Position numbers and translations under genes: made by a program. A stretch of 37,390 bases of DNA from positions 1-37,390 of the forward strand of contig JAUNEN010000025.1 in the NCBI GenBank assembly GCA_030525525.1. Reading direction: 5' to 3'. A model generated the notes under the pieces. That model was not told the DNA's origin. It saw only the letters and a list, made by a program, of their open reading frames with translations, and made no database searches. Of this stretch, positions 7,728 through 18,228 are shown piece after piece. This DNA is from Erysipelotrichaceae bacterium (GTDB taxonomy: Bacteria; Bacillota_I; Bacilli_A; Erysipelotrichales; Erysipelotrichaceae). Each line of letters opens with the position of its first letter. The first letter of the stretch is position 1.

Positions 7728-9047
7728 TTAATGTCTGAGTTTCAGAAACAGAATCCCGCCTCCGACTGCAAGCAGACCCACACCTGCTCCGATTGACACA
7801 ATCAGGGGAATATTCACTTTTTTCTTTTCCGGTTCTTTCTTTTCTTCGGCCGGCTGTCCGGCCGCCTGTGCACTCTGTTTCTTCAATCGGTCGGACAGCT
7901 CAATCAGAGGATAATTCTGATCCGTGCGGCTGACTGCCGTATGTTCGATATCGGGAACTGCCGCCGCATATCCTTCTGCCGCCTCGGATAAATGAATCCT
8001 GTAGGTCTGATCTGCTTTGATTTTTTCATTCTGAACAAGATGATCTTCATTGCCGGTCCGCCATGAGTCAACAATATTTCCGCTCACATCAAATACAGAA
8101 ATCAGAGCACCTGAGACATAGTTTCCTTCCTCGTTGACAAGCCGCACGATAAAGCCGCATTTCTGAACCTTCGTTTCAATTTTGGCGGACGGTTTCTTTT
8201 CTTCGGCGGGCAGATAGATTTCAGGAATCACAAAGGAAGTAAGCACCGGTCCGCTTTCCTCTTCGCTCACGCTCAGCACTTCGGCTTCCGTCTCTTCCTC
8301 TTCGGTCAGTTCTTCCGTGATGAGAGGTTCTTCCGGTTCCCGTGGCAGAATATGCCAGAATTCATAATACGGAACAGGTCCTTCCGGTTCTGTGACATCA
8401 TCAATACTGCCCGCTTCATCTAGATAGTATTCGATTTCAAACGGACCGTCCTCTTCTTTCATGACATCAGGAAACGTGATCAACAGATCCGCACCTTCTT
8501 CAAATCCTTCGACAGGTTCTTTCTGTGAAAGAATCAGGGAACGCGAAGAAGGAAAGGCAAACAGCTCATCTTCTTCATTTCTGACAAAGCCTTCTTCATC
8601 CGGTACAAATTCAACAAGCACTTCATCGCTCTCATCTTTCAGTTCAAGCACGCCGCCTTCCGCAAATAATTTTGTTTCACGGACATATTGGAAGATGCGG
8701 ACTTCAAAGGGATGAATGGTGAGGGTTCGCTTTGAATCGGTACGGGATTGCTGCTTTGTGATCAGGATTTCTTCGTTCACAATCCACCCATCCGGAATGT
8801 TTTCTGCATGGATCAGATATTCATTTCCCTTCTTCAGTTCAATTTCTGCAGTTTTCTCATTCACCGGAAACAAAGTCACAGTCCCTTCTTTCAGATCGTG
8901 GACAGAAATCTCTGTTTCACAAAGATCGCATTCCTCATCTGCTTCAAGTGTGATCTCAAGTATGGTGTATTCGGAAGAATGGTGTCTTTCTGATTCGGGC
9001 AGAAACAGCATCGAAAGCGCCATGAACAGCGCTGCCGCATTCTTCAT
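7728..9047 (-). CDS. Acidic secreted membrane-anchored protein with SpaA/Cna-B-like repeats
   Basis: 439 residues with a short N-terminal hydrophobic signal (about 3-17), a long extracytoplasmic region very rich in Glu and Asp, a Pro/Lys/Glu linker (about 385-405) and a C-terminal membrane helix (about 408-435) ending in a short basic tail. Two segments, about 25-115 and 295-385, look like prealbumin/Cna-B beta sandwiches (patterns such as ISVHD..GTVTLF and GFIVRLVNEEG..VSGALISVFD). No LPxTG-type sortase motif precedes the last helix, so anchoring is probably by the helix itself. Its start overlaps the SSB-like gene by four bases (ATGA), so the two are coupled. Precise function unknown. Confidence 0.75.
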   Translation of the reverse strand: MKNAAALFMALSMLFLPESERHHSSEYTILEITLEADEECDLCETEISVHDLKEGTVTLFPVNEKTAEIELKKGNEYLIHAENIPDGWIVNEEILITKQQSRTDSKRTLTIHPFEVRIFQYVRETKLFAEGGVLELKDESDEVLVEFVPDEEGFVRNEEDELFAFPSSRSLILSQKEPVEGFEEGADLLITFPDVMKEEDGPFEIEYYLDEAGSIDDVTEPEGPVPYYEFWHILPREPEEPLITEELTEEEETEAEVLSVSEEESGPVLTSFVIPEIYLPAEEKKPSAKIETKVQKCGFIVRLVNEEGNYVSGALISVFDVSGNIVDSWRTGNEDHLVQNEKIKADQTYRIHLSEAAEGYAAAVPDIEHTAVSRTDQNYPLIELSDRLKKQSAQAAGQPAEEKKEPEKKKVNIPLIVSIGAGVGLLAVGGGILFLKLRH

Positions 9048-9477: not shown

Positions 9478-9505
9478 AAAAAAACCGCAAAGTTTTCCTT
9501 TGCGG
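9478..9505 (-). terminator. Terminator downstream of the glycosyltransferase-MarR gene
   Basis: Minus strand: CCGCAAAG / CTTTGCGG with a GAAAA loop, followed by seven T. It begins six bases after the stop codon at 9512 and separates that gene from the SSB-like gene. Confidence 0.85.
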
Positions 9506-9511
9506 CGCATG

Positions 9512-10810
9512 TTATTCAACTTTCAGCATCTCCCGGATATTCCGGTCGGCTTTGCGGATCAACTGATCAAACTGTGACTTTTCTTCGTCACTCATACCCT
9601 TTGTCAATACGGACAGAAGGTCTTCGCATGCCTGATCAAGATCCTTTAACAGATCTTCCCTGACCACCTTGAATACCGGCAGCTGTCTGTCAGGCAGATA
9701 GGTCTGAGTAATGACATTCTTCATTTCAAGCTTTTCAATGGAAGCCAGCACGGTGAACTGGTTGAAACCGATGAAGTCTGAAATCTCATTGGTGAAGTGG
9801 ATATGCCGGGCAAAGTGAATGGCACAGATGATCCACATATCCCTGAGGCTCAGATCATATTTGATTCCGACCGTGCTGATATAGCGCTCAAACAGCTTGC
9901 GCTGATAATACGACATCATTAACGGTGACTCTTCGCCATGTTCATACGATACCTGAACTGTCTCTTCTCCGAGTTTACGGGTTCCCGGCATCATCGGCAC
10001 AACCATGTCATCGCTTGCGGCAGCGATCAGGAAGCCGGCAATATTTGCCCGCTCAGCCTTGTATTGTTCTTCATTGAGGACATCTTTGAAGAATCTGCTG
10101 TAATAGGTAAAGACACTCAGCTTCATCTGAATCAGACGGACAGGATTCAGATTCTTTGAAACAAGTCCGCCTTCGGTTTTCACATAATAGTACACCGGCA
10201 CGTTGAGCGTGCGGATCTTATTGACGTGCAGAAGATAATCAAGATTGAATACAAAATCTTCGCAGAAGCTGAGTTTTTCATCCATGCGGATCTGATGTTC
10301 ACGGATGATATCCGCTCTGTAGAGTTTGTTCCAGAGAACGCCGTAATAATAATCCGCCGGGTTCTCCATCATATATTCGCTGTATTCCCTGAGGCTCAGC
10401 AGCTTGTCGGCGTCAATTGAACTCTTGCGGGCAACCCTGTCTCCCACAACGCGGTAAAAGCCTGCCACAACAAGATCGCACTCATCTTCTTTCATTGCTC
10501 TGTAAAGCAGCTTGGTTGAATCGCTTGTCATCCAGTCATCGGCATCCAGGAACTGGATATATTTTCCTTTTGCCTTTTCAAGACCGAGATTGCGGGTGGC
10601 GGAAACACCTGAATTTTCTTTGTGGATCACCTGGATTCTGGGATCCTTTGCGGCATATTCATCAAGGATTGCCGCACTGCCGTCCTTTGAACCGTCATTG
10701 ATCAGGATCAGTTCAAAATCCGTGAATTCCTGCGTAAGAATACTGTCAATGCATCGTCCGATTGCTTTTTCAGCGTTATAAACCGGAATAATAATACTGA
10801 CTTCTGTCAT
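9512..10810 (-). CDS. GT2 glycosyltransferase fused to a MarR-like winged-helix domain
   Basis: 432 residues. Residues 1 to about 215 are a GT-A family 2 glycosyltransferase: SIIIPVYNAEK, LINDGSKDGS at about 36-45, NSGVSATRNLGL and the DxD-type motif LDADDWM (DADD 89-92). After a linker, residues about 300-432 read as a MarR-family domain: a helix LSLRDMWIICAI, a helix-turn-helix (TNEISDFIGFNQFTVLASIEKLE) with wing region (PDRQLPVF), and the closing GMSDEEKSQFDQLIRKADRN seen in MarR dimerisation helices. One open frame of normal quality, no frameshift. Substrate unknown; no signal peptide. RBS GAGG is seven bases from the ATG. The MarR call is by eye. Confidence 0.75.
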   Translation of the reverse strand: MTEVSIIIPVYNAEKAIGRCIDSILTQEFTDFELILINDGSKDGSAAILDEYAAKDPRIQVIHKENSGVSATRNLGLEKAKGKYIQFLDADDWMTSDSTKLLYRAMKEDECDLVVAGFYRVVGDRVARKSSIDADKLLSLREYSEYMMENPADYYYGVLWNKLYRADIIREHQIRMDEKLSFCEDFVFNLDYLLHVNKIRTLNVPVYYYVKTEGGLVSKNLNPVRLIQMKLSVFTYYSRFFKDVLNEEQYKAERANIAGFLIAAASDDMVVPMMPGTRKLGEETVQVSYEHGEESPLMMSYYQRKLFERYISTVGIKYDLSLRDMWIICAIHFARHIHFTNEISDFIGFNQFTVLASIEKLEMKNVITQTYLPDRQLPVFKVVREDLLKDLDQACEDLLSVLTKGMSDEEKSQFDQLIRKADRNIREMLKVE

Positions 10811-10849: not shown

Positions 10850-10885
10850 AAAAGAAAACCGGATTTCTCCGGAAGTTTCTTTTCC
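10850..10885 (-). terminator. Terminator after larA
   Basis: Minus strand: AAAGAAA(CTT)CCGGA, a GAAA tetraloop, TCCGG and TTTTCTTTT. The A-rich and T-rich flanks extend the stem. It starts two bases after the larA stop codon. Confidence 0.75.
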
Positions 10886-15463: not shown

Positions 15464-17536
15464 TTATTCAGCCTGTCTTGCCTTTGCTTCGGCGATAACC
15501 TTGTCTGCAACTTCCTTCGGTGCAGTCTGGTATCTGTCGAATGCCATGACATATCTGCCTCTGCCCTGTGTCATTGCACGGAGTTCGTTTGCATATGTCA
15601 GCATTTCTGCTACAGGTACTTCAGCGTTGATGACCTGGTCGCCTTCATCGTTGACAGCCATATCCATGATGAGACCGCGTCTCTTTGTGATATCGCCCAT
15701 CAGTGTTCCGGTATATTCTTCCGGAGCGATGACTGTGACTTTGCCGATCGGCTCAAGCAGTGCAGGCTTGGCATTGGGCATTGCCTTGTTGTAAGCAAGT
15801 CTTGCGGCTTCCTTGAAGGCAACTTCCTTGGAGTCTACAGGATGGTAGGAACCGTCGAACAGTGTAGCCTTGACGCCGACAACCTTGTATCCGGCCAGAG
15901 GGCCCTTGTTCATGCAGTCACGCAGACCCTGTTCTGTCGGAGGGAAGTACTGCTTCGGTACGGCACCGCCGAATACTTCTTCTGCGAAGATCATGTCGTC
16001 GCTGTCACACGGTTCGAAACGTACCCAGACGTCACCATACTGACCGGCGCCGCCGTTCTGCTTCTTGTATTTACCCTGAGCTTCAGCCTTGCCGCGGATT
16101 GTTTCACGGTACTGAACGATCGGAGTTTCTGTTTCAACTTCAACCTTGTACTTCGACTTGAGCTTGGAGATGATGAGGTCGATGTGCTGGTCGCCGAGTC
16201 CGTACAGAACCTGCTGATGTGTTTCAGCATTGTTGACCAGACGGATTGTGCCGTCTTCCTGCATCAGGTTGCGGATACCGACGGAGAGCTTGTCTTCGTC
16301 TGCCTTTGTCTTCGGCTTGATTGCATATCCGAGCATCGGCTCCGGATAATCGATTGTTGCATAATGTACAGGCTTTGCCTTTGTGCAGAGTGTGTCATTT
16401 GTATCAGTGGATGAGAGCTTGACGACTGCACCGATGTCACCTGTGAACAGTTTGCCGACACCGATCTGGAACTTGCCGTTGATAACGAAGATCTGAGCGA
16501 TCTTTTCGGTTGTGTCCTTCTTGGAGTTGTATACCTGGCTGTCGCTGTTGAGAACACCGGACATGACCTTCAGATAGGAAATCTTTCCGACGAACGGGTC
16601 GACAACTGTCTTGAAGACGAATGCGGAGAGAGCTTCGTTCTCGTTTGTTTCCATGGGAACAGGAGCGTCCTTCGCATCGAGGGCGTTTACTGTACCCTTT
16701 TCAGCATAGCTCGGGAAGTATTCAGTAATGAGATCCATCAGTCTCTCAATACCTGTCTGGCTGATTGCGCTTCCGCAATAGACAGGGCGGATGTCACCGG
16801 CTCTGACGCCGATTCTGAGTCCCTTTGCGATTTCATGTTCATCGAATTCTTCACCTTCGAAGAATTTTTCCATGAGTTCATCATCGCCCATCGCGATTGC
16901 TTCAGCGATTTCTGCATAGTGTTCTTCAACCGCATCAGCCATGTCGGCAGGAACTTCCTGCGGCTGCTTCGGGTTGGCATAATACCAAGCCTTCTTTCTC
17001 AGGATGTTGACTGAACCGACAGTCTTGCCGCCTTCAATGATCGGCATTTCGAACAGGAATACGCTCTTGCCGAACTTGGCGCGGAGTGCTTCGTAAACCT
17101 GATCGTAATGTGCATGTTCGTCATCGATCTTGTTGATGAAGAAGATGGTCGGCAGCTTTTTCTTTGCAGCAGCTTCCTTCCATGCTCTTTCGGTACCGGC
17201 TTCGATGCCTTCCTTGCCGTTGACAATGATCAGTGCGTTGTCACCGACAGCGATACCTGTTGCTTCTTCACCTTCGTAGTCCATGTAACCCGGAGTATCG
17301 ATGAAGTTGATCTTCTTGTTCTTCCATTCAACCGGTGCCAGGTGGCAGTAAACGGAGAGGCCTCTCTTGCCTTCTTCCGGATCAAAGTTCAGGAAAGTTG
17401 TTCCGTCATTGTTCTTTCCGAACTTATCGATCTGCTTGTTTTTGTACATGCATGCTTCGATGACTGTACTTTTGCCGGCACCGGAGTGACCCAGTACAAC
17501 GACATTTCTTACTTCATTTGCCAGATAATCTTTCAT
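15464..17536 (-). CDS. EF-G-like translational GTPase (EF-G-2 type paralogue)
   Basis: 690 residues with the EF-G domain order: G domain (P-loop GHSGAGKST at 16-24, DTPGYMD in switch II, NKID), domain II, domain III, domain IV beginning near YRETIRGKAE and QNGGAGQYGDV, and domain V. It departs from housekeeping EF-G: the P-loop is GHSGAGKS rather than GHIDAGKTT, switch I reads KRGLSVYCHLA, and the catalytic PGH histidine of switch II is Tyr (PGY). These are traits of the EF-G-2/EF-G-like subfamily, whose role is not settled. Co-oriented 23 bases after an ankyrin gene. RBS AGGGAG is rather far (about 12 bases) from the ATG. Confidence 0.85.
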   Translation of the reverse strand: MKDYLANEVRNVVVLGHSGAGKSTVIEACMYKNKQIDKFGKNNDGTTFLNFDPEEGKRGLSVYCHLAPVEWKNKKINFIDTPGYMDYEGEEATGIAVGDNALIIVNGKEGIEAGTERAWKEAAAKKKLPTIFFINKIDDEHAHYDQVYEALRAKFGKSVFLFEMPIIEGGKTVGSVNILRKKAWYYANPKQPQEVPADMADAVEEHYAEIAEAIAMGDDELMEKFFEGEEFDEHEIAKGLRIGVRAGDIRPVYCGSAISQTGIERLMDLITEYFPSYAEKGTVNALDAKDAPVPMETNENEALSAFVFKTVVDPFVGKISYLKVMSGVLNSDSQVYNSKKDTTEKIAQIFVINGKFQIGVGKLFTGDIGAVVKLSSTDTNDTLCTKAKPVHYATIDYPEPMLGYAIKPKTKADEDKLSVGIRNLMQEDGTIRLVNNAETHQQVLYGLGDQHIDLIISKLKSKYKVEVETETPIVQYRETIRGKAEAQGKYKKQNGGAGQYGDVWVRFEPCDSDDMIFAEEVFGGAVPKQYFPPTEQGLRDCMNKGPLAGYKVVGVKATLFDGSYHPVDSKEVAFKEAARLAYNKAMPNAKPALLEPIGKVTVIAPEEYTGTLMGDITKRRGLIMDMAVNDEGDQVINAEVPVAEMLTYANELRAMTQGRGRYVMAFDRYQTAPKEVADKVIAEAKARQAE

Positions 17537-17559
17537 ATTGCTTTCTTACTCTCCCTGAA

Positions 17560-18228
17560 TTATTTGAGAATATCCTTAAGATCCGCCAAGCATTCCTTAC
17601 GGACATAATGGATTGCCATGTTGGCATTATTATCCTTGACCTGCTTGTCTGCGCCGTTGTCGAGAAGAAGATTGACAAGGCTCGGATAGCCGATATATGC
17701 CGCTCTCATCAGAGCTGTGCATCCTTTGTGGTCGACTGCATTGATATTTGCGCCGTTCGCAAGAAGATATTCAATAATATCTGTCTTGTATCCGTTGACT
17801 GCCTCCATCAGTGCTGTTCTTCCCTGTTCGTCGACAGCGTTGACATCTGCGCCTTTGGAAACAAGATACTCAACAACTTCCTTTTCACCGAGAAGTGCTG
17901 CTCTCATCAGAGCTGTTCTTCCCTTATTATCGTGTGAATTGACATCGGCACCTGCATGAACGAGCATTCTGCAGATTTCAACATGTCCTTTTTTTGCGGC
18001 ACCCATGAGTGCTGTCTTGTTGTTTCTGTCGCGCTTGCGTGCATCTGCGCCGTTGTCGAGCAGATATCTGACGATATCTACATAACCGCGCTTTGCACTT
18101 CTCATCAGAGCCGTCCTGCCGTCACCGCTGGCGACATTGACGTCGGCACCCTTTGCCACCTGCGCACAAACTTTTGCAAAATCGCCGCTTGCTGCTGCAT
18201 CAAAGAATTCCTGATTTGTCTGATCCAT
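17560..18228 (-). CDS. Ankyrin-repeat protein
   Basis: 222 residues made almost entirely of six or seven 33-residue ankyrin repeats from about residue 5, with the consensus GRTALMRAA..G...IV.YLL.NGADVN repeated (for example at about 37-69, 70-102, 103-135, 136-168 and 169-201). No signal peptide or membrane helix, so a cytoplasmic protein-binding module is likely. It has a strong RBS (AGGAGG) and is followed after 23 bases by the EF-G-like gene, suggesting one transcript. Ligand unknown; the EF-G-like GTPase is the obvious candidate by context only. Confidence 0.9.
   Translation of the reverse strand: MDQTNQEFFDAAASGDFAKVCAQVAKGADVNVASGDGRTALMRSAKRGYVDIVRYLLDNGADARKRDRNNKTALMGAAKKGHVEICRMLVHAGADVNSHDNKGRTALMRAALLGEKEVVEYLVSKGADVNAVDEQGRTALMEAVNGYKTDIIEYLLANGANINAVDHKGCTALMRAAYIGYPSLVNLLLDNGADKQVKDNNANMAIHYVRKECLADLKDILK

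Follow-up and report, generated by a model that had tools for sequence, protein, structure and literature searches.

The fusion gene and its surroundings

The window, that is, the whole stretch of DNA that was analysed (37,390 nucleotides of contig JAUNEN010000025.1 from an Erysipelotrichaceae bacterium), contains a complete gene that joins a family 2 glycosyltransferase (GT2) to a MarR-like winged-helix domain. The gene, its parts and the two flanking hairpins are located as follows:

9512–10810, reverse strand: complete GT2-MarR-like fusion gene, 432 aa, ATG start, one frame, with more than 50 intact homologues
9962–10810, reverse strand: GT-A/GT2 catalytic domain with its C-terminal helices (223–261), residues 1–283, assigned from PF00535, the structure model and the closest PDB entry, 5hea
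10535–10546, reverse strand: DADD, residues 89–92, nucleotide-sugar/metal (DXD) motif, from an alignment of 52 homologues
9926–9961, reverse strand: variable linker, residues 284–295, with a mean pairwise identity of 14% over 284–299
9515–9925, reverse strand: MarR-like winged-helix domain, residues 296–432, predicted from a 44-sequence profile, AlphaFold models and a structure search
9665–9793, reverse strand: helix-turn-helix (HTH) and wing, residues 340–382, canonical wing D-x-R absent (DRQ instead), net charge −1
9484–9506, reverse strand: terminator-like hairpin directly 3′ of the fusion gene, GCCGCAAAG-GAAAA-CTTTGCGGT, then a T run
10859–10872, reverse strand: terminator-like hairpin in the interval between larA and the fusion gene, CCGGA-GAAA-TCCGG, then TTTTCTTTTC; also present in relatives L039, L040 and L010

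The gene order in the window is larA, hairpin, fusion gene, hairpin, ssb. Since a hairpin lies on either side of it, the fusion gene looks monocistronic here. The larA-side order is the same in near relatives, L039 and L040 among them.

Two further loci of the window deserve mention in their own right. The gene at 7728–9047 (reverse strand), which shares 4 nt with the end of ssb, encodes a 439-aa protein that has no Pfam match and resembles in style a SpaA-domain surface protein encoded at a relative's locus (L077). At 15464–18228 (reverse strand), an EF-G paralogue of 690 aa adjoins a 222-aa ankyrin-repeat protein.

A GT2 enzyme with a predicted MarR fold

The catalytic part is readily recognised. 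PF00535 matches residues 5–171 at 2.4e-40 with 138.6 bits, against a curated cut-off of 23.3, and D89, D91, D92 and the ED motif (E184-D185) are invariant in 52 homologues, so that both the profile score and the intact DXD-type and ED motifs assign the protein to GT2. The best structural match of this part in the PDB is CgT, the C-terminal GT-A domain of dGT1 from S. parasanguinis (5hea; Z 29.3, 2.1 Å over 237 residues, 32% identity), which spans model residues 1–264, followed by TarP, TarS and RmlT. The fusion protein is best explained as a soluble GT2 glycosyltransferase of the GT-A fold, judging from these sequence and model comparisons.

The C-terminal part is harder to place. On their own, the last 133 residues of the window protein gave weak matches to HTH_27 (0.15), to NCBIfam SlyA (2e-4, under the cut-off) and to SlyA in the PDB (0.004), and a Pfam scan of residues 300–432 of this single sequence yielded no match to PF01047 or PF12802. 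Weak matches, among them EAD9 (0.02) and Tenui_PVC2, were discarded as chance. A profile of 44 homologous C-terminal domains found MarR proteins in the PDB at 2e-9, and most of the 60 chains among the matches listed were MarR-type. At the sequence level, the relation to MarR is thus detected by the family profile and stays below threshold for the single window sequence. The initial annotation had read a MarR pattern in the window sequence and proposed PF01047/PF12802 as the check; these two profiles did not recover it and the sequence alone could not have proved it, but the profile of the relatives bears it out.

AlphaFold predicted the whole protein with a pLDDT of 89.1 and a pTM of 0.87 (52-sequence alignment) and the domain alone with a pLDDT of 93.0. 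The predicted helices are α1 296–317, α2 322–334, α3 340–347, α4 351–363, α5 385–402 and α6 408–428, with wing strands at 367–371 and 378–382, giving the full MarR topology α1-α2-α3-α4-wing-α5-α6 in a complete domain that spans 296–428. Because the full-length fold search returned, among the matches listed, only glycosyltransferase structures, the winged helix was modelled on its own and used as a separate query. The best 50 matches listed by VIA-align for this domain against the PDB are all MarR-type regulators, with Z from 13.9 to 11.7 over 106–138 residues. In the models, the C-terminal domain thus has the MarR fold, with the dimerisation helices α1/α5/α6 as well as the winged helix. The earlier reading of a GT2 domain and a MarR-like winged helix in one frame is confirmed by PF00535, the family profile and the models, in which residues 300–432 do form a winged helix; the estimate of about 130 residues for the C-terminal segment was also right, and the domain begins near residue 296. 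The strand, which that reading left unnamed, is the reverse one.

Distribution, origin and gene neighbourhood

More than 50 intact fused homologues, with identities down to about 40%, were found in independently assembled genomes. A whole-protein query detected the protein in 33 of the 195 sampled family genomes (E < 1e-60), in a single copy each, and all matches reach the winged helix. A search with the C-terminal domain recovered fused proteins, similar in length, from 24 of the 35 other genomes of the genus (E < 1e-8); stand-alone matches reached about 1e-4 at best, which is the level of ordinary MarR proteins. Named Erysipelotrichaceae relatives, including that of genome NK3D112 (L040), share 70, 69 and 59% identity with the window protein, and further fused relatives occur in a Solobacterium MAG and in Clostridia/Lachnospiraceae MAGs (42–44% identity). 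Since class-wide (395 genomes) and phylum-wide (392 genomes) samples contained no fused member outside the window's genus, the distribution is patchy, comprising Erysipelotrichaceae and some Clostridia as far as the sampled sequences go.

In plasmid and phage collections, the matches were either glycosyltransferase-only or on gut contigs. One fused sequence (L162, MT839439.1) comes from a short faecal contig that carries the unverified label "Bacteriophage sp." and is probably bacterial in origin. Among PF12802 matches elsewhere in the window's genome, which were examined for a second fusion, the one on C57 belongs to an unrelated protein. A separate observation concerns L160 (G120:C16), a protein of 708 aa in one frame, in which an alpha/beta-hydrolase-like region of about 275 aa, its family assigned by eye, precedes the GT2-winged-helix part.

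Two close relatives have no winged helix, namely L161 (301 aa, gut contig, 49% identity) and L156 (267 aa, Subdoligranulum variabile, 41%). In a maximum-likelihood tree of the glycosyltransferase part, the 58 fused sequences group without exception in a single clade (UFBoot 89), and the next branches outside it are L161 (UFBoot 89) and then L156 (94). As the fused sequences form one clade and its nearest sisters are glycosyltransferase-only, a single gain is the simplest reading: the winged helix was probably acquired once, by a glycosyltransferase-only ancestor, with moderate tree support. The alternative that two neighbouring genes were joined by misassembly or chance read-through, in favour of which we saw nothing, has a negligible probability, given the more than 50 intact homologues from independent assemblies, NK3D112 among them, and their position as one clade sister to glycosyltransferase-only proteins. 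Because the intact fusion recurs in independent assemblies, it is real and not an assembly error, which settles that concern of the initial annotation through the survey of relatives it had called for.

We then examined the neighbouring genes at 26 placed loci. A GH3 glycosidase gene lies directly downstream of the fusion gene at 12 of them, typically with an overlap of 4–11 nt; its product has about 775 aa, matches PF00933/PF01915 and shows no obvious signal peptide by eye. At 8/26 loci, from several genera, the gene immediately upstream encodes a GtrA-like membrane protein (PF04138, just under the cut-off); it is co-oriented with the fusion gene and in most cases abuts or overlaps it. The GtrA-like and GH3 neighbours tie the family to glycan metabolism by gene context, and neither partner is obligatory. 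In the window's genome, a search with the GtrA-like protein found nothing at E 0.01, and one with the GH3 yielded only partial matches (31–45% identity). As a separate observation, an operon of GtrA-like, GT2-MarR and GH3 genes with start-stop overlaps recurs at L084, L085, L087, L089, L091 and others.

Role of the winged helix and comparison with known systems

The MarR regulator SCO3205 contacts DNA through its recognition helix and through wing Arg98, which is positioned by Asp96, and it dimerises through α1/α5/α6 (PMC3737563). As controls for the 44 fused domains we took stand-alone MarRs of those genomes and of related ones, a set that is smaller and of different divergence. The wing motif D-[KRQ]-R is present in 0/44 fused domains, against 13/16 stand-alone proteins in a single group of MarR homologues and 21/22 in a mixed stand-alone set (D or N first). 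The window protein has DRQ within a shortened wing. Against controls of this kind, mean pairwise identity is lower in the fused domains for the recognition helix (0.30 versus 0.53) and the wing (0.13 versus 0.32), and similar or higher for α1 (0.35 versus 0.32) and α5 (0.28 versus 0.20), while α6 (0.23 versus 0.30) is no better kept than in the control. The net charge of HTH and wing is −0.3 in fused versus +1.8 in stand-alone domains (Mann-Whitney p 5e-5), and that of the whole domain averages −3.4 versus +0.8. The identity, charge and motif comparisons thus indicate that most of the dimerisation part has been retained and the DNA-reading part has not, and we infer that the role of an ordinary sequence-specific repressor was lost.

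The domain is nevertheless under purifying selection, with a dN/dS of 0.05–0.11 in three close pairs. The HTH-wing stretch has a dN/dS of about 0.06–0.19 in close pairs, and since it is constrained there, the HTH face has some role and is not fully inert. An operator of the pseudopalindromic kind that MarR homodimers bind was looked for in five aligned short 5′ regions; no palindrome besides the larA terminator is conserved among them, which is weak evidence. In L162, and in no other aligned member, about 35 additional residues rich in Lys/Arg are inserted in the wing, as a potential binding site for nucleic acid or for an anionic polymer.

One possible explanation is a trigger enzyme, functionally comparable to BirA or PutA, in which the MarR-like domain has remained a DNA-binding repressor, either of its own gene or of a glycan operon, while the glycosyltransferase domain senses a nucleotide sugar. 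A complete winged helix related to SlyA/MarR, selection on the HTH face in close pairs, the partial DRQ in the window protein's wing and the basic wing insertion of L162 would fit such an enzyme, and a glycosyltransferase and a GH3 enzyme in one operon would make a sensible regulon. However, D-[KRQ]-R is absent from 44/44 domains, the recognition helix and wing show little conservation and no basic character, the domain is on average acidic where stand-alone MarRs are not, and the short 5′ region lacks a conserved palindrome apart from the larA terminator. We therefore regard the trigger enzyme as unlikely, and the self-regulating, DNA-binding enzyme that the initial annotation named first is not supported by the same evidence, which agrees better with its second suggestion, namely that the winged helix now serves dimerisation or protein contacts. 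A more elaborate version, in which a bifunctional glycosyltransferase-repressor senses a sugar nucleotide or acceptor and controls the GtrA-like/GT/GH3 glycan-remodelling operon through altered MarR-derived DNA contacts, seems quite improbable. A glycosyltransferase that serves as its own transcription factor is not known to us.

The winged helix might instead hold an acceptor polymer or a protein (the GH3 enzyme, the GtrA-like protein or a glycosylated protein), with dimerisation absent or secondary. The wing and α4 diverge fast between lineages and are constrained within them, the extra domains of TarS have been proposed to hold its acceptor polymer (PMC5156392), and RiPP recognition elements on PF00535 enzymes bind peptides (PMC12710340), all of which would be in keeping with docking. 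No partner gene is common to all loci, however, and the window's genome lacks a GtrA-like match and has only partial GH3 matches, which makes docking without a main role for dimerisation unlikely in our estimate, somewhat more so than the trigger enzyme.

We favour an oligomeric glycosyltransferase with a MarR fold repurposed for dimerisation and/or partner contact, to which we assign a probability of roughly 0.57 on the grounds of sequence conservation, purifying selection, models, gene context and analogy. The constrained HTH face, the basic wing insertion of L162, the modest conservation of α6 and the smaller, differently diverged control set count against it. Because the MarR fold is a ready-made dimer and related glycosyltransferases oligomerise via an extra domain, the winged helix would pair two GT2 chains. 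We then propose the following model. A glycosyltransferase-only GT2 ancestor acquired a C-terminal MarR-type winged helix, probably once. Judging from its conservation and fold, this domain would dimerise the enzyme and/or dock a partner or acceptor, and two catalytic domains would be brought together as they are by the helical domain of CgT or the trimerisation domain of TarS. The acceptor of the sugar that the enzyme is predicted to transfer is probably a glycan of the cell envelope or one linked to protein, and in many relatives the enzyme probably acts together with the GtrA-like membrane protein and the GH3 glycosidase encoded alongside.

The family is a clear natural case in which a sugar-transferring enzyme of gut bacteria gained a DNA-binding repressor fold, probably in a single event, and in which the fused domain was retained in single copy in many family members while the canonical wing motif was lost. 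MarR domains may thus be recruited as oligomerisation or docking modules. The domain can also serve as a marker in the annotation of proteins in which profile libraries recognise only glycosyltransferase family 2, and it points to a GtrA-like/GT2-MarR/GH3 operon in gut Erysipelotrichaceae. If DNA binding proved true, glycan biosynthesis would gain a trigger enzyme of a new type.

Among known systems, the MarR/SlyA regulators (PF01047, PF12802) share the complete α1–α6 and wing fold (Z up to 13.9, profile E 2e-9), but the domain described here is fused to GT2, has lost the wing D-[KRQ]-R and has an HTH face that is neutral on average. BirA and PutA combine an enzyme and a DNA-binding domain in one chain and bind operators, and neither is a glycosyltransferase; unlike them, the fusion protein gives no sign of operator binding in its sequence. 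We found no published glycosyltransferase-MarR fusion in the literature (open-licence PMC papers), in agreement with the initial annotation, which knew of no described system of this architecture. RiPP recognition elements are winged helices fused to enzymes, PF00535 glycosyltransferases included, and thus share with the fusion protein a winged-helix domain on a GT2 enzyme, but their strand-helix order differs from the α1–α4, two strands, α5–α6 of our model (PMC12710340).

The wall teichoic acid glycosyltransferases TarP, TarS and RmlT share the GT2 fold (Z about 26) at 20–24% identity to the glycosyltransferase part. The C-terminal modules through which TarS trimerises also help it to bind the acceptor and to act processively (PMC5156392); its trimerisation domain is carbohydrate-binding-module-like and has no MarR fold. 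CgT is alike in both its GT-A domain and its C-terminal helices; it oligomerises and needs its extra domain for full activity, and deletion of the helical domain abolishes the dimer and lowers activity (PMC5063993). Unlike the fusion protein, CgT has a helical dimerisation domain only, without a winged helix, and its substrate is the adhesin Fap1. GT2 enzymes that carry an accessory domain for oligomerisation or docking are already known, and what is new here is the MarR origin of such a putative domain.
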